The translations under genes and the position numbers were made by a program. Shown in pieces: positions 23,915 through 39,620 of a stretch of 64,000 nucleotides of DNA (position 1 is its first letter; every line of letters begins with the position of its first letter). Source of the DNA: Agromyces albus (GTDB lineage: Bacteria > Actinomycetota > Actinomycetes > Actinomycetales > Microbacteriaceae); NCBI RefSeq assembly GCF_004134825.1, contig NZ_SDPN01000004.1, forward strand, positions 62,001 to 126,000, given 5' to 3'. The notes beneath the pieces were generated by a model, which saw nothing but the letters and a program-made list of their open reading frames with translations, had not been told where the DNA came from and did no database searches.

Positions 23915-24859
23915 ATGCCACGAAAGAACATCGACATCACCGTCCCCGACCTCTCCGGGAAGCGCGCCGTCGTCACCGGCGCCAGCGACGGGATGGGGCT
24001 GGGAATGGCCGCGCGGCTGGCCGCAGCCGGTGCGGAGGTGCTGATGCCCGTCCGCAACCGGCGCAAGGGCGAGACGGCGATCGCCAGGATCAGACAGTCG
24101 GCCCCTGGCGCCGACGTCTCGCTCCGCGACCTCGACCTGTCCTCGCTCGACTCCGTCGCCGTCCTCGGGCAGACCCTGCGAGGTGAGGGCCTGCCGATCC
24201 ACATCCTCATCAACAACGCGGGCGTCATGACGCCGCCCGACCGGCAGACGACCGCCGACGGGTTCGAGCTCCAGTTCGGCTCCAACCACCTCGGCCACTT
24301 CGCTCTCGTCGCTCACCTGCTGCCCCTCCTCACGGCCGGTCGGGCACGCGTGACCTCGCAGGTCAGCATCGCGGCCCGGCGAGGCGCCATCAACTGGGAC
24401 GACCTGAATTGGGAACGCTCCTACGACGGGATGAAGGCCTACAGCCAGTCGAAGATCGCGTTCGGGCTCTTCGGTCTCGAGTTGGGGCGGCGCAGCAGGA
24501 CCTACGGATGGGGCATCACCAGCAACCTGTCGCACCCTGGCATCGCCCCGACGAATCTGCTCGCTGCGCGCCCTGAAGTCGGCCGCGACAAGGAGACGCC
24601 GGGCCGGAGACTCATCCGCGCCCTCTCCGACCGCGGCATCCTCCTCGGGACGGTCGAGACCGCGAAGCTGCCGGCGCTCATGGCCGCCACCGGCCCAGCG
24701 TCCAAGCCCGGCGTCCTTTACGGCCCTCGCGGCCTCGGCGATCTCGGAGGTCCGCCCGCCGAGCAGCAGATGTACTCCCCCCTGCGCAGCGCCGACGACG
24801 CCCAGCGCATCTGGAAGATCTCCGAGCGACTCACCATGGCCGCCTTCCCGACCAGCTGA
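23915..24859 (+). CDS. SDR family oxidoreductase
   Basis: 314-residue short-chain dehydrogenase. Cofactor motif [12 protein letters not shown] near residue 23, [10 protein letters not shown] near residue 99, catalytic YSQSK near residue 170 and [11 protein letters not shown] after it. The extended C-terminus and the motif NHLGHF are like retinol-dehydrogenase/WW-type SDRs. ATG at 23915 follows AGGAG. It is divergent from the MmyB-type regulator. The substrate is unknown, and it is not evidently part of the quinate module that starts further on. Confidence 0.9.
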
Positions 24860-24921
24860 CACCTCGAATCGCGCGATCGCCCGTCTGCGTCGGCCGTGGG
24901 GTGTTTCGAACTGCTCCTGTA

Positions 24922-25005
24922 CCACTCGGTGGGTCGGTGGGTTGCCGGCCCCTGCCAACCGCCTCAGGGTGAAACCCAGGCGGGCTTCGGCCCGACCGTC
25001 AGTGG
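24922..25005 (+). ncRNA. Candidate structured mRNA leader upstream of the PQQ dehydrogenase
   Basis: The 172-bp spacer before the PQQ gene contains several complementary segments ending 26 bases before the ATG. CCACT (24922) pairs with AGTGG (25001); GGTCGG (24932) with CCGACC (24992); GGTTG (24940) with CAACC (24956); GCCT..GGGT (24961) with ACCC-AGGC (24974); and GGGC-UUCG-GCCC (24982-24993) is a UUCG hairpin. The last hairpin and the GGTCGG/CCGACC pairing share bases, so two folds exclude each other, as in a switch. It matches no riboswitch consensus I know. In GC-rich DNA some pairing arises by chance. Confidence 0.35.
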
Positions 25006-25031
25006 ATCAATGACGATCAAGGAGTTGAAGG

Positions 25032-27722
25032 ATGCGCACACGTCTGACCAAGAGGCTTGGAGCAGCGGGGCTGGGGACACTGGTAGTGCTCGCGATGGCC
25101 GCCTCGCCGGCGCACGGCTTCGTACTGCCCGCTGAACCCGTACCGCCCTCCGGGCTGACGGGTCTCGAGCCCACCGGATCCGACATGCCGACCGTCGGAG
25201 GCAATCTCGGCAACCAGCATTACTCCGGGTTGACGCAGATCGACAACCGCAACCTCCACGAGCTGGGGCCGACGTGGCGTACGCATGTGTCGGCGGTCGC
25301 GCCGGCCTCCGACGATGTCGGCCAGCAGACCACGCCCATCGTCGTGGATGGCGTCATCTATCTCGACACCCCGAGCGGTGGGGTGATCGCGGTCGACGGC
25401 GCGACGGGCGAGTCCGAATGGAAATGGGAACCCGCCGAGTTCGAGACGGCCGACACCCGTCGCGGCGTCTCCGCCGGCGACGGCAAGATCTTCACCCTTG
25501 CCGACGGCGATCGCGTCGTCGCGCTGGACCAGGGGACCGGCGAAGAAGTGTGGGTGGTCCAGCCCGCCGGGCCGAACGGTGAAGACCTGGGGAGCCTCGA
25601 CCGAGTCGCGACCGTGTACCACGACGGCATCGTCTACGCCCACGCCGCCAACGGCGATCGCGCCGCAGTCGTGGCCCTGAGCGCGACCGATGGCAGCTAT
25701 CTCTGGCACTTCTTCGGCGGCCCCGACAGGGGCACTATCTTCACCGACGTCAACGGCAACTCCGTCGATGCTGGCGCGACATGGGGACCAGTCCTGCCGG
25801 ACGGCACGGATTGCGCCCTCGAAGGCGGATCGACGCCATGGATCCATGGCGCCGTCGACCCCGAGCTCGGCATGTACTACATGACGTTCGGAAACGCCCG
25901 CAGCTGCACCTCCTCGCAGAACGGCTCCCTCCGGCCGGGAGACAACCTGTTCTCGAGCACAATGGTGGCGGTCGAGGCCACCACCGGCGAGTACAAATGG
26001 CATTACCAGTCCATCCGCCACGATGTCTGGGACATGGACAACGTGCACCCGCCGACGCTCGCCGATGTCGAGATCGGTGGCGAGGAGCGCAAGGTCGTCT
26101 TCTACGGCAGCAAGTCCGGTCACCAGTTCGTGCTCGACCGCACCGACGGTCAGCCGGTCCTGCCCGTGGTCGAGAAGCCGATGATCACCGACTCGCGACA
26201 GAACCACGCCGAGACTCAGCCGTTCCCCGAGGAGCGCCTGTTGCCCGAGTGCGTCGTCTGGGAGAAGTTGGACCAGGAGAACATTCCGGGGGACCCCTGG
26301 CGTGCCGTCCCGAACTACAACGGCTACCAGCCCGACGAGGATGGCAACCTGGTCTTCAATCCGGACAGCTACGTCGCGGCGGACGAGCCGTTCCTGACCT
26401 ATCCCGACGGCTACCCATCGGACCACCGCCAAGGCTGCATGTACGACCCCCAGTGGGACCTGCCGATCCTGTCGACCACCAGTCAGAACGGCGGCGCCGA
26501 CTGGTCGAACAACTCCTACAGCCACCGCACGAACCTGGTCTACTACCCGTACGGCACCAACCCCGTCGCGCACTGGAACGGCGCCGCGGCCAACGGCCAG
26601 CGCGCCATGGGCCAGTACCAGACCGGCGGCATCCTCGCCTATGAAGCCTCCACCGGTCAGGTCCAGTGGCGCAACCACCTCGGCACAGACATGTCGCACG
26701 GCCAGGGCCCCCTGACTACGGCCTCCGACCTGCTCTTCGTCGGACAGATCGACGGTCGGCTCCTCGCGATGGACTCCACCGACGGCGAGGTGCTCTGGGA
26801 GTTCCAGACCGGCTCCGGCATCGCGTCGGCACCGATCACGTATGAGGTCGATGGCGAGCAGTACGTCGCGGTGTTCGCCGCTGGCTCGACGAATCCCTAC
26901 GGGGGATCGGTCACCCAAGGTGACTCGCTGTGGGCCTTCAAGCTCGGCGGCACCTACAGCACGGACTCGGGCAGCCAAGAGGGACCGGACACGGCGCCCT
27001 TGTCCATCCGCCGCCCCGTCTCCGGCGCTGCCGTGGCGGGGGAGTCGGTCGGCAACACGGTCTACCTCGCGAGAAGCAGCCGAACGGCCGACACTGCGGC
27101 CGCGCGGGACAGCAAAGCGCAGGCGGCCATGCAGCCGACGCACCTCCGCGTGCCCGTCGGCACGACGGTCACCTTCCTCAACCCCGGGGCGGAGACATTC
27201 CCGAACTTCCCGAACCAGTTGCCGCATTGCGCGACACAGTTCTTCGAGGGCGAGTTCAACGTGAAGCTGCAGCCCGGAGAGAGCTACCAGCACACGTTCG
27301 ATCGGGCCGGTGAATACTTCTTCAACGACTGCACCGACCCTCGGCCGACCGGAAAGATCGAGGTCTACCTCGACCCGCAGGATCAGCCGGGGGCGCTGAC
27401 GTTCACCCCGAGCAGGCTCGATCTCAGCTCCGGAACGGGGATCTTCACGGGGGTGAACGGCAAGGTCACCGCGCACTTCGAGCTTCCGCCTGGGCACGAG
27501 TACGAGAGCGGCGCGATCCTGCGGGCCCCGCTCTCGCAGACGCCGATCCCTGCTACGACGGTGACGGCGAACAAGAATCGGCTGATCGTGGAGTTCGAGA
27601 AGGCCGACCTCGACAACAATGTGCCCGAGGGCGAGGTCACCCTGACCCTCGTGGCGAACGTCCTCCATGAGGGGGTGCAGAAGCAGCTGATGGCGACCAC
27701 GACCGTGACGGTCGTCAAATAG
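25032..27722 (+). CDS. Secreted PQQ-type dehydrogenase with C-terminal cupredoxin-like domain
   Basis: 896 residues. A Sec signal peptide (about 1-29, ending SPAHG) is followed by a quinoprotein beta-propeller to about residue 640, with repeated TG..W docking motifs. HDVWDMD includes D331, aligned with the catalytic aspartate of methanol/ethanol dehydrogenases, and the late segment GPLTTASDLLFVGQ, LWEFQTGSGIASAPITYEVDGEQYVAVFAAGS is typical. No adjacent Cys-Cys pair is seen. Residues about 690-785 look like a cupredoxin fold, but only one His and one Cys stand where copper ligands are expected, and an Ig-like tail follows. In this neighbourhood it may oxidise quinate or shikimate outside the cell (inference). 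GGAG precedes the ATG. Confidence 0.85.
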   Translation: MRTRLTKRLGAAGLGTLVVLAMAASPAHGFVLPAEPVPPSGLTGLEPTGSDMPTVGGNLGNQHYSGLTQIDNRNLHELGPTWRTHVSAVAPASDDVGQQTTPIVVDGVIYLDTPSGGVIAVDGATGESEWKWEPAEFETADTRRGVSAGDGKIFTLADGDRVVALDQGTGEEVWVVQPAGPNGEDLGSLDRVATVYHDGIVYAHAANGDRAAVVALSATDGSYLWHFFGGPDRGTIFTDVNGNSVDAGATWGPVLPDGTDCALEGGSTPWIHGAVDPELGMYYMTFGNARSCTSSQNGSLRPGDNLFSSTMVAVEATTGEYKWHYQSIRHDVWDMDNVHPPTLADVEIGGEERKVVFYGSKSGHQFVLDRTDGQPVLPVVEKPMITDSRQNHAETQPFPEERLLPECVVWEKLDQENIPGDPWRAVPNYNGYQPDEDGNLVFNPDSYVAADEPFLTYPDGYPSDHRQGCMYDPQWDLPILSTTSQNGGADWSNNSYSHRTNLVYYPYGTNPVAHWNGAAANGQRAMGQYQTGGILAYEASTGQVQWRNHLGTDMSHGQGPLTTASDLLFVGQIDGRLLAMDSTDGEVLWEFQTGSGIASAPITYEVDGEQYVAVFAAGSTNPYGGSVTQGDSLWAFKLGGTYSTDSGSQEGPDTAPLSIRRPVSGAAVAGESVGNTVYLARSSRTADTAAARDSKAQAAMQPTHLRVPVGTTVTFLNPGAETFPNFPNQLPHCATQFFEGEFNVKLQPGESYQHTFDRAGEYFFNDCTDPRPTGKIEVYLDPQDQPGALTFTPSRLDLSSGTGIFTGVNGKVTAHFELPPGHEYESGAILRAPLSQTPIPATTVTANKNRLIVEFEKADLDNNVPEGEVTLTLVANVLHEGVQKQLMATTTVTVVK

Positions 27723-27810
27723 GCCGCGCTCGGCCAGCGAATGGCCTGTCGCGCCGTGTCCCATTCGGCGAGACTCGGCCTTGCAGAGATCGGCCCCAAG
27801 ACGCAGAGTC

Positions 27811-27850
27811 GCAAGGGCGGCCGCGTGCACGCGCACACGGCCGCCCTTGC
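27811..27850 (+). terminator. Strong stem-loop after the PQQ dehydrogenase gene
   Basis: Perfect 13-bp inverted repeat (27811-27823 with 27838-27850, arms GCAAGGGCGGCCG/CGGCCGCCCTTGC) with a 14-base loop that can pair further (GTGC/GCAC). There is no T-run, as is common in high-GC terminators. It lies 88 bp after the PQQ stop and just before the leader frame of the TRAP operon. Confidence 0.7.
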
Positions 27851-27869
27851 ATCAACAGAGAGGTTGGCA

Positions 27870-27947
27870 ATGCATCCTGACTCCCTGACGTCCGCTGTTC
27901 GGGCACACCGCCCCTCGCGGAGCGCCGCCCGGGCGGTGGCGCCGTGA
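27870..27947 (+). CDS. Possible 25-residue leader peptide coupled to dctQ
   Basis: Short frame MHPDSLTSAVRAHRPSRSAARAVAP with a good ribosome binding site (GAGAGG, six bases upstream). Its stop overlaps the GTG start of the TRAP small permease (GTGA), and that GTG has no good ribosome binding site of its own. This arrangement suggests translational coupling. The peptide is basic and resembles nothing known; it could be only a device for initiation. Confidence 0.45.
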   Translation: MHPDSLTSAVRAHRPSRSAARAVAP

Positions 27948-28528
27948 CCGAGAAGGAGCCCGAGGAGTCCATCTACGGGCACACCAACAGCTTCTACACC
28001 GTCCCCAACCTCAATCAGGGCGTCCCGCGGGATCCCGGATTCCTGCGCGGCCTGTCGATGGTCGAGATTGTGATCGGGGTGGCATTGTTTGCCCTGCTCT
28101 TCTTCGGTGTGATGTACCAGGTGCTGGGCCGGTACGTTCCCGCCATCGGCTGGGTAGGTGCCGGCGAACTCGCACTCCTGTCCATGGTCGGAGTGACCTT
28201 CATCACCACCGGGTACCTCGTCGGCCGGAACGGACACATCGTGCTCGAGGTGTTCGACCGGGTGCTCGAGGGCACGAAGCTCTTCGTCGCCCTGCGAATC
28301 GTCTCTGCGGTCATCATGGTTGCGACGAGTCTCGCGCTCGCCTACGAGGCGTTCGTGAAGATCGAGAGCGAGTGGGTGCGAGCCAGCGCCGCGATGCACG
28401 TCCCGCTGGGCATGCTGTACGTCTTCGCGCTGATCGGCTTCCTTTCGGCCGCGGTGCATTCGGCGTGGAAGATCCCGTATGCGAACCGCCCCGAGCGCAA
28501 GCTCGACATCTCCGAGATGGAGGGCTAG
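27944..28528 (+). CDS. dctQ: TRAP transporter small permease (DctQ-like)
   Basis: 194-residue membrane subunit of a tripartite ATP-independent periplasmic-type transporter. After a cytoplasmic N-terminus of about 35 residues come four hydrophobic segments with the DctQ-type sequence MVEIVIGVALFALLFFGVMYQVLGRY and ELALLSMVGVTFITTGYLVGRNGHI. It partners the DctM permease that follows within three bases and the lipoprotein DctP at 30496. The GTG start overlaps the stop of a short upstream frame. The location between a PQQ dehydrogenase and aroQ suggests quinate/shikimate-type substrates. Confidence 0.88.
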   Translation: MTEKEPEESIYGHTNSFYTVPNLNQGVPRDPGFLRGLSMVEIVIGVALFALLFFGVMYQVLGRYVPAIGWVGAGELALLSMVGVTFITTGYLVGRNGHIVLEVFDRVLEGTKLFVALRIVSAVIMVATSLALAYEAFVKIESEWVRASAAMHVPLGMLYVFALIGFLSAAVHSAWKIPYANRPERKLDISEMEG

Positions 28529-28531
28529 GAG

Positions 28532-29812
28532 TTGGATCTCTGGCTCTACATCGTCCTGCTCGTCGTCCTTCTCCTGCTCAGAGTGCCCGTCGCGTTCGCC
28601 ATGATCGCGCCCAGCATGCTCTACTTCTACAGTCAGGGTCTCTCCCCGGGGTACGCGATCTCGTCGATCGTCAACGGCATCAACAGCTTTCCGCTGCTCG
28701 CTGTGCCACTGTTCATCTTCGTCGGCACCATCGCGAACCACCTGGGCATCGCCACGAGGCTCTACGACTTCGCGAGGGCGTTGCTTCCTCGGCTTCCCGG
28801 CAACCTCGCCTATGTCAACCTCGGGACCGCGATCGGATTCTCCTGGATCAGCGGCTCCGCACTTGCGGATGCTGCGTCCACGAGCAAGGTCCAGATCCCG
28901 CAGATGCTCAAAGCAGGCTACCCCTACGGGTTCTCGGCGGGTCTGACGGCATCGGGTTCGCTGATGAGCACGGTGATGCCACCGAGCATCCCCGCCGTCC
29001 TGTTCGCAGCGACCGCCTCGATCTCCACCGGTGCGCTCTTCGCCGGCTCGATCCTTCCGGCGATCCTGATGGCAGTCGGCCTGGCGGTCTACATCTTCAT
29101 CTGGGTGCGACTGCATCCGGCCGTCGCCGTGAGTCGCCCGTTCGATGGAACATTGTTCCGCAAAGCGCTCGTGCGCGTCATCGGACCCATGATGCTGCCG
29201 ATCATCATCCTCGGTGGCATCTTCAGCGGGTGGTTCACCCCGACCGAGAGCGCCGGCATCGCGGCCGGCTACATGCTCGTGCTGGGGGTGATCTACCGGA
29301 CCCTGTCGTGGAAGGTGTTCTGGCGAGCATCCAAGGAGACGGTCGTCATCTCCGGGGGCATCCTGCTGATCCTCGGTGCATCCAACCTCATGGGGCAGGT
29401 GCTGGCACGCGAGCAGGTGTCGCGAAACCTGGGTGAATGGCTCACGGCGCTCACCGACAACCCGATCGTCTTCCTGCTGCTGCTCAACGTGCTGCTGATC
29501 CTGCTCGGCATCTTCCTGGAGGCGCCTCCGGTGATTCTGGTGCTCGTGCCGATCCTGATGCCGATCATCGGCCAGTTCGGGATCGACCCGGTGCACCTCG
29601 GCGTCATCATGATCCTCAACCTGATGATCGGCTCCTTGACACCACCCGTCGGCGCCGTGCTGTTCGTCGTCGGCTCGATCACGCGGAGGCCGATGGGCGA
29701 GCTGTTCAGGGGCATCCTTCCGTTCCTCATTCCGCTGGGGGTCGTGTTGCTGTTGCTGACACTGTTCCCGGCCATCGTCACGATCGTGCCCACGTGGCTC
29801 GGCCTGCTGTGA
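28532..29812 (+). CDS. dctM: TRAP transporter large permease (DctM-like)
   Basis: 426 residues, about twelve membrane segments, the ion-coupled transport channel of the TRAP system. Family landmarks include FPLLAVPLFIFVGTIANHLGIA, the SGSALADAAS loop, MPPSIPAVLFAATASISTGALF, GWFTPTESAGIAAGY and MIGSLTPPVGAVLFVV. TTG at 28532 was chosen because GGAGGG ends seven bases upstream. It lies in one transcript with dctQ, aroQ and probably dctP. Confidence 0.93.
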   Translation: MDLWLYIVLLVVLLLLRVPVAFAMIAPSMLYFYSQGLSPGYAISSIVNGINSFPLLAVPLFIFVGTIANHLGIATRLYDFARALLPRLPGNLAYVNLGTAIGFSWISGSALADAASTSKVQIPQMLKAGYPYGFSAGLTASGSLMSTVMPPSIPAVLFAATASISTGALFAGSILPAILMAVGLAVYIFIWVRLHPAVAVSRPFDGTLFRKALVRVIGPMMLPIIILGGIFSGWFTPTESAGIAAGYMLVLGVIYRTLSWKVFWRASKETVVISGGILLILGASNLMGQVLAREQVSRNLGEWLTALTDNPIVFLLLLNVLLILLGIFLEAPPVILVLVPILMPIIGQFGIDPVHLGVIMILNLMIGSLTPPVGAVLFVVGSITRRPMGELFRGILPFLIPLGVVLLLLTLFPAIVTIVPTWLGLL

Positions 29813-29836
29813 CGCCGCCCCTGAAAGGAGCCATCC

Positions 29837-30274
29837 GTGACCAGGAAGCTGTACGTCCTGAACGGCCCGAATCTCGACATGCTCGGTCAGCGCGAGCCCG
29901 AGCTGTACGGCAGTGCGACGCTCGACGACGTCCGAACCGATTGTGAGCGCGTCGCCGGCGAGCTGGACTTCGACGTGTTCTTCGCGCAGTCCAACGCCGA
30001 GCACCAGATCGTGGAGTGGTTGCACGATGCGTATCGCGAGAATGCGGCGGTGGTCATAAATCCCGCCGGATTCAGCTTTGGCTCGGTGCCGGTGCTCGAC
30101 GCGCTCCTCATGCTCGACGCCCCGATCGTGGAGATCCACATCACCAACATCCATGCGCGCGACGCCGCTCATCAGCACTCGCTGATCTCCTCGGCCGCTC
30201 GAACCGTGATCGCAGGAGCGGGCGTCTTCGGGTACGAACTCGCGATCCGAGCGGCCGACCGGCTCACGTCGTAG
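29837..30274 (+). CDS. aroQ: Divergent type II 3-dehydroquinate dehydratase
   Basis: 145 residues with the type II dehydroquinase layout: LNGPNL, R19, the catalytic Y24 (REPELYG), N75 (INPAG), E99 and H101 (VEIHITNIHAR) and R108. It converts 3-dehydroquinate to 3-dehydroshikimate, the catabolic middle step for quinate. Two substrate-contact positions differ: H81 is Phe (NPAGFSFGS instead of NPxAYTHTS) and R112 is His (ARDAAHQHS instead of AREEFRHHS); QSNHEG is QSNAEH. Activity on the standard substrate is therefore not assured. The GTG start has AAAGGAG upstream. Confidence 0.85.
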   Translation: MTRKLYVLNGPNLDMLGQREPELYGSATLDDVRTDCERVAGELDFDVFFAQSNAEHQIVEWLHDAYRENAAVVINPAGFSFGSVPVLDALLMLDAPIVEIHITNIHARDAAHQHSLISSAARTVIAGAGVFGYELAIRAADRLTS

Positions 30275-30495
30275 CGCGCCGCGAGGAAGGGCGATGTTCC
30301 ACTCGACGGGACTTCGCTTTTCGGACCGAGTGGATTCGGCAAGAGTCGGCACTGCCACCGGGCCGTTTCCTTGACAGAGTGGTCGACGATGCCCCGCCCC
30401 ATGCAGAGTCGTCGCCACTCCCTCGTCGCAGTCTCGGCCATCGACCTGCACGTCAACCCAAGCACGAGGACGTGCGCACACAAGAGGAGAGTCAC

Positions 30496-31548
30496 ATGAG
30501 CACAGCCCGCTCGACGAGACGAGGCCGAATCGCCGCGTCGGTGCTCGCAGCAACCACGCTCGTCTTCACCGGCTGTGCCGGCGGCAGCCCGGAGAGTGAG
30601 ACCCCCGGCACCGACGCCGAGAGCACGCCGGTCACACTCACCGTCGCGACCAGCCAGAACGAGCAGACGCCCAATTACTACTGCGGCGTCGAACTGCTCC
30701 AGGAACGACTCGAGGAGGCCGACCTGGGCTTCACCGTCGAGCTGTATCCCGCGAGCCAGCTCGGCCCCGACGCGGATCGCTTCCCCCTCGTCCAGGCCGG
30801 CGACATCGACATCGACCTGCAGGGTGCTTCGGCGCTCAGTTCCACGTATGAGCCGATCGGAGTCGTCGACGCGGCATATGCCTTCGACGACGTCGAGCAT
30901 GCGTTCGAGTGGATCGACGACGGTTCAGAAGACCTGTTCACCTCATTCCAGGAGGCGACCGGTGTCAGCATCGTCGACGGATGGTTCTTCGGGAACCGCA
31001 CGTTCACGACGAAGGACATCGAGGTCCGCAGCCCCGACGACCTCGAAGGCGTGCCGATCCGGTTCCCGAATTCGCCGGCATTCCTGGCGAACGCGGAAGC
31101 TCTCGGCGTCACGAACCCGGTTTCCGTCGCAGTCGAGGAGCTCTACACCGCGCTTCAGCAGGGCATCGCCGTCGGACAGGAGAATCCCATCGTCGCGACC
31201 CGCTCGTCGAGCTACGACGAGATCCTCAACGTGGCCGTCCTCAACAACCACAACGTCGGCATCCACTGGATCCTCGTGAGTGACAAGACGTACGAGAAGA
31301 TGAGCGACGAGCAGGCTGCCCTCCTGGAGGAGACGATCCACGAGATCCGCTCGGAGAACCGCGACTGCGTCGACGAGGCCACCGAGGAGATCCTCGATGA
31401 GTATCGTGCGAACGACGCCTTCACGGTGATCGAGCAGGAGGACATCGATATGGAGGCGTTCATCAGCGAGGCGGAAGCCTACTTCGAGGGCTACTTCTCG
31501 GGTGAGACGCTCGAGATCTACCAGGCCATCCGAGACATGGCCGGCTGA
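30496..31548 (+). CDS. dctP: TRAP transporter substrate-binding lipoprotein (DctP-like)
   Basis: 350-residue extracytoplasmic binding protein. The lipoprotein signal ends in FTGC with the lipidated cysteine at residue 27, then an acidic Ser/Thr-rich linker and the DctP domain (ELYPASQLGPDADRFPLVQAGDIDIDLQG; GVPIRFPNSPAF; ELYTALQQGIAVGQENP; HWILVSDKTYEKMSDEQ). GAGGAG precedes the ATG. It lies 221 bp after aroQ, possibly with its own promoter; the gap holds a 7-bp inverted repeat CCACTCG/CGAGTGG near 30299-30333. The strong hairpin at 31561 ends the transcript. By context the ligand may be quinate, shikimate or dehydroshikimate. Confidence 0.9.
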   Translation: MSTARSTRRGRIAASVLAATTLVFTGCAGGSPESETPGTDAESTPVTLTVATSQNEQTPNYYCGVELLQERLEEADLGFTVELYPASQLGPDADRFPLVQAGDIDIDLQGASALSSTYEPIGVVDAAYAFDDVEHAFEWIDDGSEDLFTSFQEATGVSIVDGWFFGNRTFTTKDIEVRSPDDLEGVPIRFPNSPAFLANAEALGVTNPVSVAVEELYTALQQGIAVGQENPIVATRSSSYDEILNVAVLNNHNVGIHWILVSDKTYEKMSDEQAALLEETIHEIRSENRDCVDEATEEILDEYRANDAFTVIEQEDIDMEAFISEAEAYFEGYFSGETLEIYQAIRDMAG

Positions 31549-31560
31549 TCCCGGAATGAG

Positions 31561-31597
31561 GAGATGGGGTGGGTGCGATACGCACCCACCCCATCTC
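31561..31597. terminator. Bidirectional terminator between dctP and the IclR gene
   Basis: Perfect 17-bp stem (31561-31577 with 31581-31597, arms beginning GAGATGGGGTGGG) closed by the three-base loop ATA. It is one of the strongest hairpins in the window and sits between convergent stops at 31548 and 31610. Confidence 0.85.
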
Positions 31598-31609
31598 TGT
31601 TGCCGGGAG

Positions 31610-32368
31610 TCAGAGGGTCCGACCGGCGGCGCAGACACGACGACTCAGGGAGAGTGCAGCTGCGCGCACCACGGGAGAGACCCGGTCTGCAGCGAACTCC
31701 TCGGCGTGTGCGATCACCGAGATGGCCGCGACGGGAACGGCCCCGTGACCGAGGATGGGGCTCGCGACGCTCGCGCGCCCGACCGCGCATTCTTCGCGCT
31801 CGGTGGCGATCCCGCTCCTGCGCGTCTCAGTCAGTTCTCGCAGAAGGGACGAGGGCTCGCGGATCGTGCGTGGCTCGAGCCATCCGTCGGCGATGACGTC
31901 GACCACCTCCTGCGCAGAGAACGCGAGGATGGCCTTTCCAAGCGCTGTGGCATGAGCCGGGAGGCGCCCTCCGAGCCTTCCGGCCGATGTCGGCGTGTGC
32001 TGACCACGGACGATCGCGATCAACACCACGTCCGCTCCGTCCAGGACGGCGAGTTCGACGGTATGGCCGGTGAGATTGCGCAGTTCGGTCATCACGGGCA
32101 GGGCGAGCTGTCGGAGCCTCCGCGGCTGCTCGACCGTCTGACCCAGTTCGAACAGCCGGAACCCGAGGTAGAGCTTGTCCCCTTCACGGTCGAGGAAGCG
32201 CTGCCCGACGAGCTCGGCGGCGATCCTGGACACCGTGGACTTCGGAAGGTTCGCCCGCCGGGCCAGCTCGGAGACGCCGAGGCCGTCGTCATTCTCGCCG
32301 AAGGCATCGAAGACCGCCGCGACGCGGTCCAGCACACTGACCGCTTCCGTCCAGTCCGCGGTTCGCAC
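31610..32368 (-). CDS. IclR family regulator, second of a tandem pair
   Basis: 252 residues: an N-terminal winged helix (SVLDRVAAVFDAFG; VSELARRANLPKSTVSRIAAELV) and the IclR effector domain (GHTVELAVLDGADVVLI; LPAHATALGKAILAF). GTG at 32368 starts six bases after the stop of the related gene upstream, so the two are co-transcribed. The two proteins are paralogous in layout (LPKSTVSR in both). IclR regulators such as PcaR and PobR control protocatechuate-pathway genes elsewhere, which fits the quinate module. Confidence 0.9.
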   Translation of the reverse strand: MRTADWTEAVSVLDRVAAVFDAFGENDDGLGVSELARRANLPKSTVSRIAAELVGQRFLDREGDKLYLGFRLFELGQTVEQPRRLRQLALPVMTELRNLTGHTVELAVLDGADVVLIAIVRGQHTPTSAGRLGGRLPAHATALGKAILAFSAQEVVDVIADGWLEPRTIREPSSLLRELTETRRSGIATEREECAVGRASVASPILGHGAVPVAAISVIAHAEEFAADRVSPVVRAAALSLSRRVCAAGRTL

Positions 32369-32374
32369 GGCTGC

Positions 32375-33133
32375 CTATGCCGCCGCGAGACGGCGGGTGA
32401 CCCGCACGCCGGCCGCGCGCACGAGCGGCGCGACGCGTTCGGGGTCCATTGCCCCGCTCGGTCCCGCGATGGAGAGTGCGCCGAGGACCACGTGGTCGGC
32501 CGAGAGCACGGGGCTCGCCACAGCAAGGATGCCGGGATAGGAGTCGCCGGGGTCCGTCGCGACGACGGAGGCCCGCACCTGGTTCAGCTCGTCCCTGAAG
32601 TGGTCGGCGGCGTCATCGCCGAGGAGCGCGCTGACCCGATCCACCACGCGCTGATCTTCGCAGAAGGCGAGGTAGGCCTTGCCGCTGGCGGTGGTGAGCG
32701 CGGGCGAGCGCATGCCGGCGCGCGTCGGAAGCATCGGCAGTCGCCCCGCCACGGTTGCGATCGACACCATGTCGGTACCCTGATTGACCCAGAGTCCTAC
32801 GCGCTCGCCCGTGAGGTCCCAGAGATCCTTGATGACGGGGGCTGCGGCGCTGAGGAGCCGGCGAGGCAGGCTTGCGCGTGCGCCGAGTTCGTACAGCCGG
32901 AGGCCGAGGGTGACGCCTCCGGGAGTGCGCTCGAGGTAGCGCTGCTGAACCAATGCCGCCACGAGGCGCGAGACGGTGGACTTCGGCAAGGCCGTATGCA
33001 GCGCGAGATCGGTGATGGAGGTCGACCCGCCCGACTCCTTCACCGTGTCGAGGATCGCGATGATGCGGTCGAGCACCGAGGTCGACCCGCTCGGCCGGGA
33101 CGGGGACGTGTTCCACTCGGCGAGACTCGTCAT
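32375..33133 (-). CDS. IclR family regulator, first of a tandem pair
   Basis: 252 residues with winged helix SVLDRIIAILDTVKESGG and ALHTALPKSTVSRLVAALV and the effector domain (GERVGLWVNQGTDMVSIATV; SPALTTASGKAYLAF). ATG at 33133 has GGAAGGGG seven bases upstream. It is divergent from the quiC/qsuB gene at 33266, and the 132-bp spacer carries the 16-bp palindrome at 33189-33204. It probably regulates itself, its paralogue and the catabolic genes, with a pathway compound such as quinate or protocatechuate as effector (inference). Confidence 0.9.
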   Translation of the reverse strand: MTSLAEWNTSPSRPSGSTSVLDRIIAILDTVKESGGSTSITDLALHTALPKSTVSRLVAALVQQRYLERTPGGVTLGLRLYELGARASLPRRLLSAAAPVIKDLWDLTGERVGLWVNQGTDMVSIATVAGRLPMLPTRAGMRSPALTTASGKAYLAFCEDQRVVDRVSALLGDDAADHFRDELNQVRASVVATDPGDSYPGILAVASPVLSADHVVLGALSIAGPSGAMDPERVAPLVRAAGVRVTRRLAAA

Positions 33134-33188
33134 CGAAGATCCCCTTCCAGCAGGTTGAATCATCATCGATCGCCCTCAGCGATTCGAA

Positions 33189-33204
33189 CGTACTAGTTAG
33201 TACG
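33189..33204. promoter_or_regulatory. Candidate IclR operator
   Basis: CGTACTA-GT-TAGTACG, a perfect palindrome with 7-bp arms, midway between the divergent IclR gene and the 3-dehydroshikimate dehydratase gene. I did not find the same palindrome before the PQQ gene or the TRAP genes. Confidence 0.65.
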
Positions 33205-33265
33205 GATTGATGCAATGCTGTCTTGAGAATCGCAGTCGCCGCCGTCGGCGCCTGCCGGAGGTGTC

Positions 33266-35113
33266 ATGCGCACATCGATCGCCACGGTCTGCTTGAGCGG
33301 CACCCTCGATCAGAAGCTGGTAGCGGCGCACGAGGCCGGGTTCGATGGGGTGGAGATCTTCGAGCCTGACCTCGTCGCGTCACCCGACTCGCCCGAGACG
33401 ATCCGCACACGAGCGGAGGAGCTCGGGCTGTCGCTCGATCTCTACCAGCCGTTCCGCGACTTCGAAGGGGTCGGGCCAGACCTGCTCGAGCGGAATCTGC
33501 GACGCGCCGCGGCGAAGTTCACGCTCATGAACCGCCTCGGCATCGAGACGATGCTGCTGTGCAGCAACGTCGCGACTGCGCGCAGCGGCGACGAGCAGCT
33601 CGCGGCAGCGCAGCTGCGTGAGCTGGGGGACCTGGCGGAGCGCTTCGGCGTGCGAGTCGCATACGAGGCGCTTGCGTGGGGAAGATTCGTCGACAGTTAC
33701 GAGCAGGCAGCGCGCATCGTCCGCCTCACGGATCACCCTCGCGTCGGGGTGTGCCTCGACAGCTTCCACATCCTCTCGAAGGGCCACAATCCGGAAGCGA
33801 TCGAGACGATTCCGGCTGACAAGATCTTCTTCGTGCAGCTGGCGGATGCCCCACTGCTCTCAATGGACGTGCTCTCGTGGAGCCGCCACCACAGGCTCTT
33901 CCCCGGCGAAGGCGGCTTCGAGCTCGGTGCTTTCATGGGGCATCTGGTCCGAACGGGCTACGACGGCCCCATCTCGCTCGAGATCTTCAACGACACGTTC
34001 CGGCAGTCGGATCCCCGGGCGACGGCTGTCGAAGCGCGGCGCTCATTGCGCTGGCTCGAGCACGAGACCGCGCTCTGGCTGGGCGCCTCGCCCGGCGCTC
34101 GGGCCGCCAGGATGTCGGCCTCGGCGCTGCCAGCCGTCGAGCCGCCCGCGGAGGTCAACTACCTGGAACTGCGTGCGGACGCGGTCGACGATATGCGGGC
34201 GCTGCTCTCGCAACTCGGATTCCACGCGCACGGGCGTCACCGGACCAAGGCCGTCGAACTGTGGTCGCAGGGGGCGGCCCGCATCATCGTCGGTCGACCG
34301 GAATCGGATCGGCCCCAGCCCACCGTGGCCGGCATCGGACTCTCGGTTGTGTCGCCGGAAACGGCGATGCGGCGGGCCACGGAGCTGTTCGCTCCCGAGA
34401 TCCTCCGCCGGGAGAGCGCGGGCGACGAGCCGTTGGTCGGCGTGCGCGCGCCTGATGGATCCGAGGTGTTCTTCGGGGCTGAGGGGGAGACCGAGCCGAA
34501 CTGGGTGCATGAGTTCGGCGCTCCCGCAGGCGAAGACACCCCCGTGATCCAGCGGGTGGATCACGTCAATCTCGCACAACCGTGGCAGCACTTCGACGCG
34601 GGCGTGCTCTTCTTCCACTCCGTACTCGACCTGCGAGCACAGCCCTCGCTCGAGGTCGCCGCGCCGGTGGGCCTCGTGCGCAGCCAGGTGCTTCGAAGTG
34701 CCGATGGCGTCATCCGCATCGCCCTGAACCTGGTGCCGTCGGGCGCGGACCCGGATGCCATCCTGCCGCAGCACATCGCGTTTGCGGCATCCGACGTCCT
34801 GGGGCTGGCACGGACTGCCCGCGAGCGTGGATTCCGGCCCCTCGACATCCCCGCCAACTACTACGACGACATCGCAGCCCGATACGACATCGACCCAGCG
34901 CTGCTCAGCGAGCTCAAGGAGCTGAACGTCATGTACGACCGGGACGAGTCGGGCGAATTCCTCCACTTCTACACCCCACCGATCGGGACGGTCTTCCTCG
35001 AAGTCGTCGAGCGGCGAGACGGCTACGACGGGTACGGAGCGCTCAACGCTCCCGTCCGTCTCGCCGCGCAGTACCAGCAACGGCGCGTGGCGACGGAGGG
35101 AGTGTCGGCGTGA
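33266..35113 (+). CDS. qsuB: 3-dehydroshikimate dehydratase with HPPD-like C-terminal domain
   Basis: 615 residues, close to the size of QsuB/QuiC proteins. The N-terminal sugar-isomerase-like TIM barrel (1-280) holds candidate metal ligands in VAYEALAWGRF, VCLDSFHILS, FVQLADAP and ISLEIFNDTF. It turns 3-dehydroshikimate into protocatechuate. The C-terminal half is a vicinal-oxygen-chelate domain like 4-hydroxyphenylpyruvate dioxygenase, with His in VDHVNL and QHIAFA and Glu in FLEVVER, so the metal triad is kept. The ATG has GGAGG upstream. It heads a four-gene transcript with start/stop overlaps to the Dabb and QsuD genes. Confidence 0.92.
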   Translation: MRTSIATVCLSGTLDQKLVAAHEAGFDGVEIFEPDLVASPDSPETIRTRAEELGLSLDLYQPFRDFEGVGPDLLERNLRRAAAKFTLMNRLGIETMLLCSNVATARSGDEQLAAAQLRELGDLAERFGVRVAYEALAWGRFVDSYEQAARIVRLTDHPRVGVCLDSFHILSKGHNPEAIETIPADKIFFVQLADAPLLSMDVLSWSRHHRLFPGEGGFELGAFMGHLVRTGYDGPISLEIFNDTFRQSDPRATAVEARRSLRWLEHETALWLGASPGARAARMSASALPAVEPPAEVNYLELRADAVDDMRALLSQLGFHAHGRHRTKAVELWSQGAARIIVGRPESDRPQPTVAGIGLSVVSPETAMRRATELFAPEILRRESAGDEPLVGVRAPDGSEVFFGAEGETEPNWVHEFGAPAGEDTPVIQRVDHVNLAQPWQHFDAGVLFFHSVLDLRAQPSLEVAAPVGLVRSQVLRSADGVIRIALNLVPSGADPDAILPQHIAFAASDVLGLARTARERGFRPLDIPANYYDDIAARYDIDPALLSELKELNVMYDRDESGEFLHFYTPPIGTVFLEVVERRDGYDGYGALNAPVRLAAQYQQRRVATEGVSA

Positions 35114-35412
35114 TCCGTCATGTCGCCGTCTTCCGATTCGTTCCGTCGTTCACCGCCGCGGATCGTGAGCACTGGATGTCATTGCTGCGCGCGCTGCCCT
35201 CACAGATCCCCGAGTTGCGGAGCATGAGCGTGGGCGAGGACCTCTTGGCCGGCCCGAATTCGCACGAGCTCGCGATCGTCGCAGACTTCGACGACCTCGA
35301 TGCGCTCGATGCATACTCGCGGCACCCGGCGCACGCCGAGGTCCTCAGCATCTCGGCTCCCGTCAAGGTGTCGCTCGCCACCGTGGACTTCGAGGTCCCT
35401 GACACACCATGA
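35110..35412 (+). CDS. Dabb domain protein (stress-responsive alpha/beta barrel)
   Basis: 100-residue ferredoxin-like alpha/beta-barrel protein beginning IRHVAVFRF with the Dabb pattern LAIVADFDDLDALDAYSRHPAHAEV. Dabb proteins are small dimers acting as enzymes or ligand-binding helpers in aromatic and polyketide metabolism. Start and stop both overlap the neighbouring genes (GTGA with qsuB, ATGA with qsuD), so it is made together with the pathway enzymes. It has no assigned step in known quinate catabolism. Confidence 0.85.
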   Translation: MIRHVAVFRFVPSFTAADREHWMSLLRALPSQIPELRSMSVGEDLLAGPNSHELAIVADFDDLDALDAYSRHPAHAEVLSISAPVKVSLATVDFEVPDTP

Positions 35413-36332
35413 GGCCGCAGCGACAGCACAGCCAGTCGGATGCGTCCGCGACTCGCGCCCACTACCTCGTCGGCCTCATCGGCGAGGGCATCACCGCATC
35501 ACTCACGCCGCTGATGCACGAGGCCGAAGCGGCCGCGCTCGGTCTCGAGTACGAGTACCGCATCCTGGATCTCATCCAGCTCCGCAAGCGGCCTGAGGAT
35601 GTGGGGGCGCTCCTCGCCGAGGCCAATCGCCTCGGCTACGCGGCGATGAACATCACCCACCCCTGCAAGCGGCTGGTGCTCGATCTCGTCGACGAGCTCG
35701 ACCCGGATGCCGAACGTCTGGGAGCCGTCAACCTCGTGGTATTCGAGGCCGGACGTCTCATCGGTTACAACACCGACTGGATGGGCTATCGCGACGGACT
35801 CATCGCGGGCCTGCCCGGTGCATCGTTCGAGCGTGTCGTGCAGGTCGGATGCGGCGGCGCCGGCGCAGCCACTGCGTATGCGCTGCTCTCGTGCGGCGCC
35901 GCCCGGCTCGACCTGTGCGACGTCGACCGTACCCGCGCGGAGGAACTGTCCGAGCGCATGCGCTCCCACTTTCCGACGCAGACCATCGCGCCTGTCGGCG
36001 CAGAGGGCGTCGCGGCGGCGATATCGCGCGCGACCGGGGTGGTGCACGCCACCCCGTTGGGAATGCTGCACAACCCGGGTGTCGCGTTCGACGTCAGCCT
36101 GATCTCGAAGGGGTCATGGGTCTCGGACGTCGTCTACCGGCCGCTGGAGACCGAGCTCATCCGGCGGGCGGCGCGGCAGGGGCATCCGGTGCTCGACGGA
36201 GGCCGGATGGCTGTCGGCCAGGCATACGCTAGTCTCCAGATCATCACGGGCGAGCAGCCCGATCGCGATCGGATGGAGCGGCATTTCCGCGCCCTCGTCG
36301 AAGCCGAGGAGTGGTCAGAGGGCGGCGAGTGA
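35409..36332 (+). CDS. qsuD: Quinate/shikimate dehydrogenase, QsuD type
   Basis: 307 residues in the AroE superfamily. It resembles the Corynebacterium QsuD type: GLIGEGITASLTPLMHEAEA at the start, catalytic lysine K87 in NITHPCK and aspartate D123 in NTDWMGY, glycine-rich VGCGGAGAATAYAL, and SDVVYRPLETELIRRA. It oxidises quinate to 3-dehydroquinate and shikimate to 3-dehydroshikimate with NAD+. The direction is taken from its catabolic neighbours: an overlap with the Dabb gene and qsuB three frames upstream. A biosynthetic AroE role is less likely given this context. Confidence 0.9.
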   Translation: MRPQRQHSQSDASATRAHYLVGLIGEGITASLTPLMHEAEAAALGLEYEYRILDLIQLRKRPEDVGALLAEANRLGYAAMNITHPCKRLVLDLVDELDPDAERLGAVNLVVFEAGRLIGYNTDWMGYRDGLIAGLPGASFERVVQVGCGGAGAATAYALLSCGAARLDLCDVDRTRAEELSERMRSHFPTQTIAPVGAEGVAAAISRATGVVHATPLGMLHNPGVAFDVSLISKGSWVSDVVYRPLETELIRRAARQGHPVLDGGRMAVGQAYASLQIITGEQPDRDRMERHFRALVEAEEWSEGGE

Positions 36333-36424
36333 CGCCCGCCGGACCGGATCGACGCCCCACACGGGCGCGGAATAGCCGCGGAACTGCGCAGAACTCGGAC
36401 GTGCCGCGGCGGAGGGAGCTCTCG

Positions 36425-37099
36425 ATGACCGACCAGCTGAGCGAGGTCCCCGATGAGGGGGTGACCCGACGCGCCGCGCGGAGCCAGGAGGACATCCTGG
36501 AGGTCGCAACGGCCGAGTTCGCCGCGAACGGGTATGCGGGGGCTCGGGTGGATGAGATTGCCGCCCGTACGCGCACGACCAAGCGGATGATCTACTACTA
36601 CTTCGGTTCGAAGGAAGCGCTCTACCTCACCGTTCTGGAACGCGTGTACGCCCAGATCCGTCGGGTCGAGCGTGGCATCCAGATCGACGAGCTGTCGCCA
36701 ACCGAGGCGCTTCGCAAGCTCGCCGAGGCGACGTACGACCACCACACGACGCACGAGATGTTCATCCAGCTCGTCAGCATCGAGAACATCCACCGAGCGG
36801 AGCACCTTCAACAGTCCGAGACGATCCTGCGGGAGAACGCCACAGCGATCACCCTGCTCGAGCAGGTGATCGAGCGAGGCGTGCGGGAGGGCATCTTCCG
36901 TGACGACGTCGATGCGCTCGACGTGCACATGATGATCAGCGCCTATGCGTGTTTCCACGTCGCGAACCGGCACACCTTCGCCGCCATCTTCAAGCGCGAC
37001 ATGCTCGATCCCGCGCTGCAGCCCTCGCACCGGCGTCTCATCGGCGACATGATCGTGGCGACGATGGCAGACCGGCGCAACCGGCGAACCGTCCCGTGA
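36425..37099 (+). CDS. TetR/AcrR family transcriptional regulator
   Basis: 224 residues. Helix-turn-helix: SQEDILEVATAEFAANGYAGARVDEIAARTRTTKRMIYYYF; C-terminal region LVSIENIHRAEHL and HMMISAYACFHVANRHTFAAIF as in TetR regulators of aromatic and fatty-acid catabolism. ATG at 36425 was chosen because GGAGGGAG precedes it; an in-frame GTG at 36329 overlapping the qsuD stop would add 32 residues and couple the genes. It lies last in the qsuB-Dabb-qsuD transcript, so it is a third regulator of the quinate module. Confidence 0.88.
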   Translation: MTDQLSEVPDEGVTRRAARSQEDILEVATAEFAANGYAGARVDEIAARTRTTKRMIYYYFGSKEALYLTVLERVYAQIRRVERGIQIDELSPTEALRKLAEATYDHHTTHEMFIQLVSIENIHRAEHLQQSETILRENATAITLLEQVIERGVREGIFRDDVDALDVHMMISAYACFHVANRHTFAAIFKRDMLDPALQPSHRRLIGDMIVATMADRRNRRTVP

Positions 37100-37169: not shown

Positions 37170-38147
37170 TCAGACCGTGCAGAAGGGCTTGATGCCCATG
37201 GCGCTCTCGAGTCCCTCCACCACGTGCTGCCTGAAGAGGTCGTCGTTCACCATCGCCGTGTCGGTCCATGCCGCTGCATCATGCCCCAGGGTCGTCAGCC
37301 ACGCCTTGCCACCGTCGTAGTAGTGGCACCAACTCACGGCGTGCTCGGCACCGTGTCCGGGGTGGCCGGCCGTACGGCCGTTGAGGCTGGTCGCCTCATC
37401 GACTTCGAGCAGCACGTTGACGTAGCTGGGGTAGGGCTCGAGGTTGTACCACTCGTCCTTGAATGCCCACTCCGACGGCATGAAGGAGGTCGACACGTCG
37501 TCCCCGTCGATCGTCTCGACAGTGCCGTCGCGGTGCGGGGCGTGATCGTAGAAGTTGGCTCCGCCGAGGAGGCCCTCGTACCACGGCCAGTGATACTCCG
37601 CACCGAACGCGTTGTGGATCCCGACGAACCCACCGCCGCGGCGAACGTATTGCATCAGATTCGTCTGCGCGGTGTCGTCAAGGGTGTCGCGGTTGGAACT
37701 GAGGAAGACGACCGCCTGGTACCGATTCAGGTTGCCGAAGCTGGCAAGGTCTTCGGTGTAGTCGACGACGATGCCGCGCTCCTCCGCCCACGCCTTGAGC
37801 CCGGCCTGCGCGACGTTGTCGGCGTTCAGCGGCGGATTCAGACCGGCGCCGAGCGGCGTGCCGAGGTGGGCATGGCGCGGACCCGCGGTGCGGCTCCAGA
37901 TCAGGATGCGCTTCTCCTCACCTTCCACCCATCCATTGCCCCACTCGTGATAGCAGACGGGGTCGGTGCCGCGGCAGACGCCGTAGTCCTTGATCTCGTC
38001 CTGATAGATCTGGCTCGCGGTCGCGGGCTGACCGCGCCCGCTCCCGTCCCGGTCGCTCTCGCTCGCGGGAGTTGCCGTCAGCGCGATGCCGGCGCCGAGA
38101 ACCCCTGCGGCGATGACGGCGACTCCGGAGCGTACTGGTGATCTCAC
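37170..38147 (-). CDS. Secreted ThuA domain protein
   Basis: 325 residues. An N-terminal signal peptide (VRSPVRSGVAVIAAGVLGAGIALTA region) is followed by a linker and a ThuA/trehalose-utilisation domain of the glutamine-amidotransferase-like fold (KRILIWSRTAGPRHAH; VVFLSSNRDTLDD; GGGFVGIHNAFG; PWYEGLLGGANFYDH; HYYDGGKAWLTTLGHD). Four cysteines in the secreted part (CRGTDPVC; WC; FC) may form disulfides. GTG at 38147 has AAAGGAG upstream. It is monocistronic. Its function is unknown; secreted ThuA domains often accompany sugar-acting proteins. Confidence 0.85.
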   Translation of the reverse strand: MRSPVRSGVAVIAAGVLGAGIALTATPASESDRDGSGRGQPATASQIYQDEIKDYGVCRGTDPVCYHEWGNGWVEGEEKRILIWSRTAGPRHAHLGTPLGAGLNPPLNADNVAQAGLKAWAEERGIVVDYTEDLASFGNLNRYQAVVFLSSNRDTLDDTAQTNLMQYVRRGGGFVGIHNAFGAEYHWPWYEGLLGGANFYDHAPHRDGTVETIDGDDVSTSFMPSEWAFKDEWYNLEPYPSYVNVLLEVDEATSLNGRTAGHPGHGAEHAVSWCHYYDGGKAWLTTLGHDAAAWTDTAMVNDDLFRQHVVEGLESAMGIKPFCTV

Positions 38148-38526
38148 GTGATCTCCTTTGATCGTTCGTACTGTCTCCTCGGGACTGCCGAAGGGCGTGA
38201 TCACCGGCCGGTGCCGTTACCGCATCCGTTGTCCAGCCCGCTCTGAGGGTGCCGGCGACCCGAGTTCGTGCGAATCTAAGCGCACGCGAAGCCCGAGGCA
38301 ACGGCTGTTCCACCCAGTAGGCCGCGGGTCGCTGGGCCGCCCGACGGTCGGCAATGTGATCGACAGCATGGGGGCCCGAACCCGAGGACTGACGTGCGGC
38401 GTGAGACACGACATCGACGCCGGGGCATCCGTCGCTCAACCGGTGATCGCGAACACGATGCTCGCTCCGCCGAGGAACACGTCGAGGCCGATACAACGAT
38501 CGCTCCGATCGGAAGAGGTCGTGAAA
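38148..38526. other. Intergenic stretch without recognisable gene
   Basis: 379 bp between the starts/ends of two minus-strand genes. Open frames here have the skewed composition of antisense shadows. Visible elements are the ThuA ribosome binding site at its left edge and a 12-bp perfect palindrome CACCGGCCGGTG at 38202-38213, possibly an operator for the ThuA gene. Nothing else was supported. Confidence 0.5.
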
Positions 38527-39540: not shown

Positions 39541-39576
39541 CGTTGCGTGCTCCTCGTTCGGCGGCCACCTCATACG

Positions 39577-39598: not shown

Positions 39599-39620
39599 GT
39601 GACCGAGAGTTGGAAAGCCG

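Follow-up and report, generated by a model that had tools for sequence, protein, structure and literature searches.

Does a secreted quinoprotein that is encoded beside genes for quinate and shikimate breakdown take part in that breakdown, or does it only live next door? The question is raised by a stretch of 64,000 nucleotides of Agromyces albus DNA (contig NZ_SDPN01000004.1, positions 62,001 to 126,000; hereafter the window, whose coordinates are used throughout), where the gene of a pyrroloquinoline quinone (PQQ)-type dehydrogenase, here called QP, precedes genes of a tripartite ATP-independent periplasmic (TRAP) transporter and of quinate/shikimate enzymes. An initial annotation, made from the sequence alone, had listed these genes, described them as a quinate/shikimate catabolic island with TRAP import, and counted the secreted PQQ-type protein as a part of it. 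Our gene calls in the source genome (genus Agromyces, 4.29 Mb, 111 contigs, completeness 99.98%) were based on Pfam scans with gathering cut-offs and NCBIfam models with curated cut-offs; all listed genes were found, and every one of them has one or more Pfam domains above the gathering cut-off. The inclusion of QP in the island is supported by a conserved gene neighborhood together with a common operator-like motif. The wider interpretation, a quinate/shikimate catabolic regulon that includes QP and has an oxidation step outside the cell, has in our judgment a probability of about 0.5. The genes concerned are the following.

25032..27722 (+): QP, predicted secreted PQQ-type propeller dehydrogenase, 896 aa; Pfam PQQ, 255.5 bits
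27944..28528 (+): DctQ, TRAP small permease; Pfam DctQ, 58.2 bits
28532..29812 (+): DctM, TRAP large permease; Pfam DctM, 344.2 bits; TIGR00786 above cut-off
29837..30274 (+): AroQ, type II 3-dehydroquinate dehydratase; Pfam, 162.3 bits; NF003806 above cut-off, TIGR01088 below
about 30493..31548 (+): DctP, TRAP solute-binding lipoprotein; Pfam DctP, 155.7 bits (scored for the longer frame, 30016-31548)
31610..32368 (-): IclR regulator 1; closest NCBIfam model PcaR/PcaU/PobR, whose cut-off is not reached
32375..33166 (-): IclR regulator 2 (Pfam)
33266..35113 (+): QsuB, QsuB/QuiC-type 3-dehydroshikimate dehydratase, 615 aa; TIM barrel (AP_endonuc_2, 155.9 bits) and a second half like 4-hydroxyphenylpyruvate dioxygenase (HPPD)
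35110..35412 (+): Dabb (A/B barrel) protein; Pfam Dabb, 57.3 bits; putative GTG start
35409..36332 (+): QsuD, QsuD-like quinate/shikimate dehydrogenase; Shikimate_dh_N, 64 bits; SDH_C below cut-off
36311..37099 (+): TetR regulator; TetR_N and TetR_C_29
37170..38204 (-): ThuA-domain protein, secreted-looking; Pfam ThuA, 150.5 bits; signal-peptide-like N-terminus; absent from the initial list

QP is separated by 221 bases from dctQ-dctM-aroQ, which are followed by dctP on the same strand, the two iclR genes on the opposite strand, and qsuB-dabb-qsuD-tetR again on the plus strand. The N-terminus of QP, read off the sequence and not by a predictor, resembles a signal peptide, and that of DctP is lipoprotein-like.

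A search of genomes for the PQQ-dehydrogenase next to dctQM-aroQ and qsuB-qsuD had been suggested in the initial annotation, and it did reveal such an association. One genome per species was taken for 84,980 species, and the search, which reaches close relatives only, returned 54 QP loci; these extend at most 10 kb to each side, so that the counts of QsuD, TetR, ThuA, alcohol dehydrogenase and EDD are lower bounds, and they are mutually non-independent, many being from Microbacteriaceae or of the Actinoplanes type. The controls were 20 stretches at arbitrary positions in 20 QP genomes (19 of 20 kb and one of 2.1 kb). AroQ, QsuB or QsuD is present in 34 of the 51 QP loci that are at least 14 kb long, in 26 of these 34 together with DctM, whereas AroQ, QsuB, QsuD, DctM and ThuA all were missing from the 20 control stretches. 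Taken singly, AroQ was observed in 23, QsuB in 21, QsuD in 15 and ThuA in 30 of the 51 loci, and either ThuA or a quinate gene in 45. The gene order differs among the loci of Microbacteriaceae, of the Actinoplanes type and of proteobacteria, and the genes still stay together; on a Variovorax plasmid, ThuA-QP and a propeller-like protein are followed by DctM-DctQ-AroQ-DctP on the opposite strand. ThuA is tied to QP by this neighborhood and not by the motif described below.

Within the genus, 60 genomes were compared. A near-full-length QP is encoded in 8 of them (G001 and G029 each have it as two pieces), a QsuB match occurs in 11, and DctM at least 86% identical to that of the window in 7. Near-full-length QP was detected in 8 of the 11 QsuB-matching genomes versus none of the 49 others; G056 has a partial match to QP (33%), and the matches in G053 and G055 are weak. 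The two pieces found in Agromyces agglutinans and G029 (L042/L064 and L065/L070) overlap, and there the gene may be broken or the sequence faulty.

The second line of evidence is a 17-bp motif, GTNCCAYTCGRYGRGNC, which was found as a 17-mer shared by the intergenic regions of the island and then widened using the QP upstream regions of relatives. The matches in the window are therefore non-independent, and the test is provided by the relatives, which share descent, and by the controls. Four exact copies belong to the island.

24919..24935 (+): operator-like site before QP, 113 bp from the QP start; GTACCACTCGGTGGGTC, exact match to the motif
27758..27774 (+): operator-like site before dctQ; GTCCCATTCGGCGAGAC
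30296..30312 (+): operator-like site before dctP; GTTCCACTCGACGGGAC
33110..33126 (+): operator-like site 156 bp upstream of qsuB, at the start of iclR2; GTTCCACTCGGCGAGAC, overlapping the 5' end of the called iclR2 frame

In total the window contains 5 exact matches, and shuffled sequences gave 0.34 at up to one mismatch; the fifth copy (22534-22550, minus strand) lies outside the island, within the frame of an APH-type kinase. In 18 clusters with DctM over 70% identical, the window included, the motif was observed with at most two mismatches before QP in 15 of 18, before dctQ in all 18, before dctP in 16 of 16, before qsuB in 13 of 14 and before iclR2 in 14 of 16, the last two counts resting largely on one common site. 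Exact matches number 42 in 384 kb from 18 relatives, one in 742 kb of other QP loci (L008, before QP) and none in 382 kb of control sequence, where two mismatches give a background of 20 matches, or about 0.02 per 400 bases. On the alignment of QP upstream regions the site forms a conserved block amid poorly alignable DNA, and in L008 and L014 an exact motif precedes QP although QP is not beside dctQ; these are the only two of the 37 other QP loci with the motif before QP. Scans for sigma-70 promoters and terminators were no richer than shuffles (0 vs 1.2 and 2 vs 3.9, respectively). The motif, which recurs in Microbacteriaceae relatives, links QP in this group of bacteria, at the level of predicted regulation, with the genes for uptake and breakdown.

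The catabolic nature of the island and its TRAP import, as initially proposed, are borne out by the gene families (Pfam/NCBIfam), which support the view of DctQ-DctM-AroQ-DctP, QsuB and QsuD as a candidate quinate/shikimate catabolic set. The island aroQ is the second copy in the genome; the other, about 2.5 kb from an aroB that passes its cut-off and adjoined by efp- and nusB-like genes (read by eye), looks biosynthetic, and the genome has three Shikimate_dh_N matches. A dehydroquinate dehydratase, a 3-dehydroshikimate dehydratase and a quinate/shikimate dehydrogenase hence stand together, as in a Qsu-type cluster, with separate biosynthetic copies elsewhere. QsuB matches the QuiC model NF042435 over nearly its whole length with 540.6 bits, under the cut-off of 1200, and its second half is HPPD-like only below cut-offs (Glyoxalase_5, 25.4 of 27; TIGR01263, 89.9 of 277). 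QsuD scores 367 bits with the shikimate dehydrogenase subfamily model NF009201 (cut-off 235) and 252.8 bits with the equivalog model of NAD+-dependent quinate/shikimate dehydrogenase, below its cut-off of 515. Both proteins fall under the cut-offs of QuiC and of the NAD equivalog, and the specificity given for them is therefore putative.

On another contig (C90), pcaG (177.3 bits, cut-off 126.25) and pcaH (346.7 bits, cut-off 296.4) both pass equivalog cut-offs and are accompanied by a 4-hydroxybenzoate hydroxylase that passes a subfamily cut-off and a pcaB-like protein that does not reach its own (282.2 of 355.75). Because of the AroQ, QsuB and QsuD matches and pcaGH, the genome is predicted to encode a route from dehydroquinate through protocatechuate to ring opening. 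An Arg of DctP aligns with the Arg of solved TRAP binders, which we take to be the carboxylate-binding residue. QsuB-type enzymes can divert 3-dehydroshikimate, and the island could accordingly serve to turn intermediates of the cell's shikimate pathway into protocatechuate, for example for iron uptake, and not to degrade quinate. The TRAP transporter, the second AroQ and the QsuD-type dehydrogenase are signs of uptake and catabolism, as is pcaGH in the genome, and this explanation seems to us very improbable.

What kind of protein is QP? The AlphaFold2 model is a PQQ-type propeller with a mean pLDDT of 83.4 (residues 1-58 and 485-492 are poor); the best Foldseek matches are PQQ alcohol dehydrogenases, and the closest solved sequences and folds are those of quinohaemoprotein alcohol dehydrogenases and PedH (6zcv/6zcw, 1kv9, 1yiq, 1kb0). 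The propeller starts near residue 50-60 after a single signal-peptide-like segment, and no N-terminal membrane domain was seen on reading the sequence and the model without a transmembrane predictor. The protein also contains a cupredoxin-like domain, at about 700-780, and ends in a beta domain. In the alignment of 48 sequences, for which 47 of the 54 loci were used (L007, L042, L044, L046, L054 and L056 were omitted as short, frame-split or carrying stops, and so was L055, which had not failed), R144, W270, N288, D334, D336 and K361 are invariant in 48 of 48. We take these to be residues of the PQQ, metal and catalytic site, D336, two residues past D334, being the extra Asp position. QP thus has the fold and the catalytic and PQQ-contacting residues of PQQ-dependent dehydrogenases at large. 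An extra Asp two residues past the catalytic Asp marks lanthanide PQQ alcohol dehydrogenases (PMC11996626). This Asp is present in all 48 QP sequences, and since E. coli Gcd shows the same WDMD, the DxD motif is not decisive for lanthanide dependence of QP.

The initial annotation had named the membrane-bound quinate dehydrogenase QuiA of Gram-negative bacteria in connection with the PQQ protein, and a family relation of QP to QuiA was not supported. With TIGR03074, the model of membrane-bound glucose/quinate/shikimate enzymes (QuiA/Gcd), QP scores 209.4 bits, far under the cut-off of 832.65. A tree was built from 20 of the 48 aligned QP sequences and 12 plasmid-borne references, 6 alcohol-type and 6 Gcd-like (three annotated as TIGR03074 family, E. 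coli gcd, and two with other PQQ names; none is a proven QuiA). The 20 QP sequences fall on one side of a branch (100/99), apart from both kinds of references, some of which are long-branched, and the 6 Gcd-like references form their own group (100/100); QP sequences from genomes that encode PqqE are in the same clade as the others. QP as a QuiA was rejected on the score and on this placement outside the Gcd-like references. By sequence, QP is a clade of its own among PQQ-type proteins, separate from the Gcd-like and alcohol dehydrogenase references used.

The regulon would work as follows. One or both IclR proteins would bind GTNCCAYTCGRYGRGNC before QP, dctQ-dctM-aroQ, dctP and iclR2/qsuB-dabb-qsuD-tetR. 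Outside the membrane, QP would be loaded with scavenged PQQ and would oxidize a ring hydroxyl of quinate and/or shikimate, yielding 3-dehydroquinate or 3-dehydroshikimate, and the TRAP transporter would import the oxidized or the native acid. Inside the cell, QsuD, acting on the native acid, and AroQ would lead to 3-dehydroshikimate, QsuB would convert it to protocatechuate, and pcaGH, encoded elsewhere in the genome, would open the ring. The assignment of QP and DctP to quinate/shikimate is putative, and so are the role of ThuA and the electron acceptor of QP.

A number of observations weigh against this scheme. First, 17 of the 51 QP loci have no quinate gene in reach. Such loci would be expected if QP had only been inherited along with the quinate genes and played no role in the pathway, but the association survives the differing gene orders in three groups of loci and the same motif recurs before QP in most clusters, and we give this possibility hardly any credit. 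In the genus, the QsuB match of G001 and G046 is a longer paralog only (43%), and the QP and QsuB genes of G040 are on separate contigs. A thiamine pyrophosphate (TPP) enzyme occurs in 28 of the 54 QP loci, and the relatives' set of TPP enzyme, aldehyde dehydrogenase and citryl-CoA-lyase-like protein near QP might mean another substrate. Of 4 clusters, one has the motif before ThuA; the window does not. The motif is absent before QP in L031 (Agromyces), L032 and L033, all from Microbacteriaceae, as well as in every QP locus from other families; L032 and L033, with L007, where upstream sequence is about 100 bases, are the misses among the 18 clusters. No cytochrome or other electron acceptor was seen among the genes scanned.

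The protein itself adds further points to the same side. QP is under the curated cut-off of every PQQ family that it matches, including TIGR03075 (methanol/ethanol, 268.3 of 480.05 bits) and TIGR04528 ('acido-empty-quinoprotein', 240.4 of 650 bits). The vicinal Cys pair and the Glu, presumably a metal ligand, to which we ascribe roles in alcohol-type PQQ dehydrogenases, are each present in 6 of 6 alcohol-type references versus none of the 20 QP sequences in the tree, and the xDN motif of 5 of the 6 Gcd-like references is absent from QP as well. In the cupredoxin-like domain no more than a single His and a single Cys are invariant. A copper relay in this tail was considered and rejected on that ground and on its Copper-bind score of 19.6, under the cut-off of 21.2.

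A further point is the supply of the cofactor. PqqE was sought in the source genome and in the genomes of 49 of the 54 QP loci, 50 in all. In the source genome, where the search covered PqqE and not PqqB, C or D, no match passed the cut-off, the best having 69.6 bits (cut-off 381.35); PqqE above the cut-off was likewise missing from 40 of the 50 genomes and from all 19 other Microbacteriaceae genomes among them, assigned by genus name (except for Agromyces, we assume that these genera belong to the family). The ten positive genomes are those of Nakamurella, Dactylosporangium, Rugosimonospora, Paractinoplanes toevensis and six proteobacteria, and because the model passes in the first four it works in Actinomycetota. 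One explanation is that QP works without PQQ, its propeller being empty or differently loaded and binding a ligand or another cofactor. The missing PqqE would fit with this, as would the sub-cut-off match to the 'acido-empty' family and the absence of the Glu ligand and the Cys pair. However, the six PQQ-site residues, the catalytic Asp among them, are invariant, the column of the alcohol-type Glu is filled by Asp in 32 of 48 QP sequences (Asn in 6, Ser in 4, Gly in 3, and Ala, Pro and Arg in one each), and PqqE does occur in 10 of the 50 genomes, so we regard a PQQ-free QP as unlikely. In a genome with no PqqE above the cut-off, PQQ would need to be scavenged. A secreted apo-QP could take it up, in a Gram-positive bacterium directly, and E. 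coli Gcd is a precedent for a quinoprotein in an organism that does not synthesize PQQ.

The prominence of ThuA suggests another possibility. QP and the secreted ThuA protein may act outside the cell on a related plant compound, either an ester of quinate or shikimate (chlorogenate, for example) or a different cyclitol acid, and the TRAP transporter may import only the quinate/shikimate-like product. ThuA is found near QP more often than AroQ, QsuB or QsuD singly. In addition, three genomes of the genus (G004, G038 and G056) have QsuB (54-56%) adjoining a TRAP permease (50-51%) and no full-length QP, so that QP would be dispensable for the route as such. Identity to the window's DctM is 86-89% in QP-linked clusters, versus 35-58% for the other matches in the genus, which is also in favor of this possibility. 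Against it, no esterase was found among the scanned island genes, a protein with a twin-arginine (TAT) signal that scores 19.5 with Esterase_PHB, under the cut-off of 23, is present in only 9 QP loci, and the ThuA gene of the window is not preceded by the shared motif. We consider this possible but doubtful, and retain the regulon with extracellular oxidation of quinate and/or shikimate as the preferred interpretation.

Several other genes were observed around QP. The TPP set of the relatives (L010, 5599-9708; also L024, L029, L045, L049, L057, L085 and L086) further holds either an aldehyde dehydrogenase and a class III CoA-transferase or an acylating aldehyde dehydrogenase, plus the citryl-CoA-lyase-like protein, often together with a QsuB of roughly 900 residues that carries an extra C-terminal part. 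Such a set could convert a 2-oxo acid via acyl-CoA to acetyl-CoA and an oxo acid. It has no match in the window, and the best TPP-enzyme match in the source genome is 34% identical. In many relatives (L006, L009, L010, L011, L017, L028, L034, L037 and others), an FAD_binding_2 flavoprotein (8 loci) and an inositol-2-dehydrogenase-like Gfo/Idh/MocA protein (14 loci) separate aroQ from dctP and are encoded on the opposite strand; the window has neither at this place. In proteobacterial loci (L043-L046, L049, L052 and L084) a PQQ_2-type propeller protein of about 460-520 residues (33.8 bits in L045) lies beside QP or ThuA. Beyond ThuA the window encodes a zinc alcohol dehydrogenase and an IlvD/EDD dehydratase (38527-41342), with matches in 3 and none of the 54 QP loci, respectively; at the spacing seen in the window they would lie outside the 10-kb flanks, and these counts have little weight. 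Upstream of QP, a short-chain dehydrogenase/reductase gene (23882-24859) is not counted as an island member because a match occurs in one of the 54 QP loci and in 2 of the 20 control stretches.

How does the island compare with known systems? The Corynebacterium qsu set also includes qsuC, and its QsuA is a transporter of the major facilitator superfamily (MFS). In Corynebacterium glutamicum, qsuB, qsuD, the qsuA promoter and the LysR-type regulator QsuR have been described (PMC11258901). Both actinobacterial catabolic sets have a 3-dehydroshikimate dehydratase and a quinate/shikimate dehydrogenase, whereas the Agromyces island has a TRAP and not an MFS transporter, an IclR pair and TetR in place of LysR, an additional secreted quinoprotein and a ThuA neighbor. 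The use of TRAP instead of MFS had been presented as a special feature, which it is not. On a plasmid of Chelatococcus sp. CO-6, the block TetR-SDH-DctP-DctQ-DctM-AroQ-QuiC-like (record annotation; SDH, shikimate dehydrogenase) has the same combination of TRAP transporter, AroQ, QuiC/QsuB-type protein and shikimate dehydrogenase; the annotation of the displayed 16.4 kb names neither a quinoprotein nor ThuA nor IclR. QsuB likewise adjoins a TRAP permease in the three genomes of the genus that have no full-length QP.

QuiA is a PQQ-using, membrane-bound enzyme. In Acinetobacter baylyi, quinate is converted to protocatechuate in the periplasm by QuiA, QuiB and QuiC (PMC4213383). The proposed scheme resembles this pathway in the oxidation of quinate outside the cytoplasm and the subsequent dehydration to protocatechuate; in contrast to QuiA, QP would be soluble and secreted and belongs to a clade distinct from Gcd-like enzymes. 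AroQ and QsuB of the island show no signal peptide, and the later steps would therefore be inside the cell. From PedH and the quinohaemoprotein alcohol dehydrogenases QP differs by the missing vicinal Cys pair and Glu ligand and by its cupredoxin-like tail. No description of a PQQ-TRAP-quinate cluster or of a ThuA-quinoprotein pair was found in the titles and abstracts that searches of an open-access library (PMC) returned, and as far as these searches go, the link of the QP clade to quinate genes, the shared operator-like motif and the ThuA partner are apparently undescribed.

The predicted regulon links an uncharacterized clade of secreted PQQ-type proteins to uptake and breakdown genes, and it bears on the substrate of this clade, on the use of others' PQQ by Gram-positive soil bacteria, and on the role of ThuA beside quinoproteins. 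The operator-like motif offers a means of finding more members of the regulon. As a tentative suggestion, short of an even chance, QP may be the founder of a third family of PQQ dehydrogenases, acting on cyclitol acids of the quinate/shikimate type and having a copper-free cupredoxin-like tail; at least two phyla would pair it with a secreted ThuA and cytoplasmic quinate enzymes, and in Gram-positive bacteria without PQQ synthesis it would be switched on by the PQQ of neighbors. Quinate and shikimate are abundant plant acids. If this suggestion is true, their use would be, for quinate at least, a partly shared and community-dependent trait.

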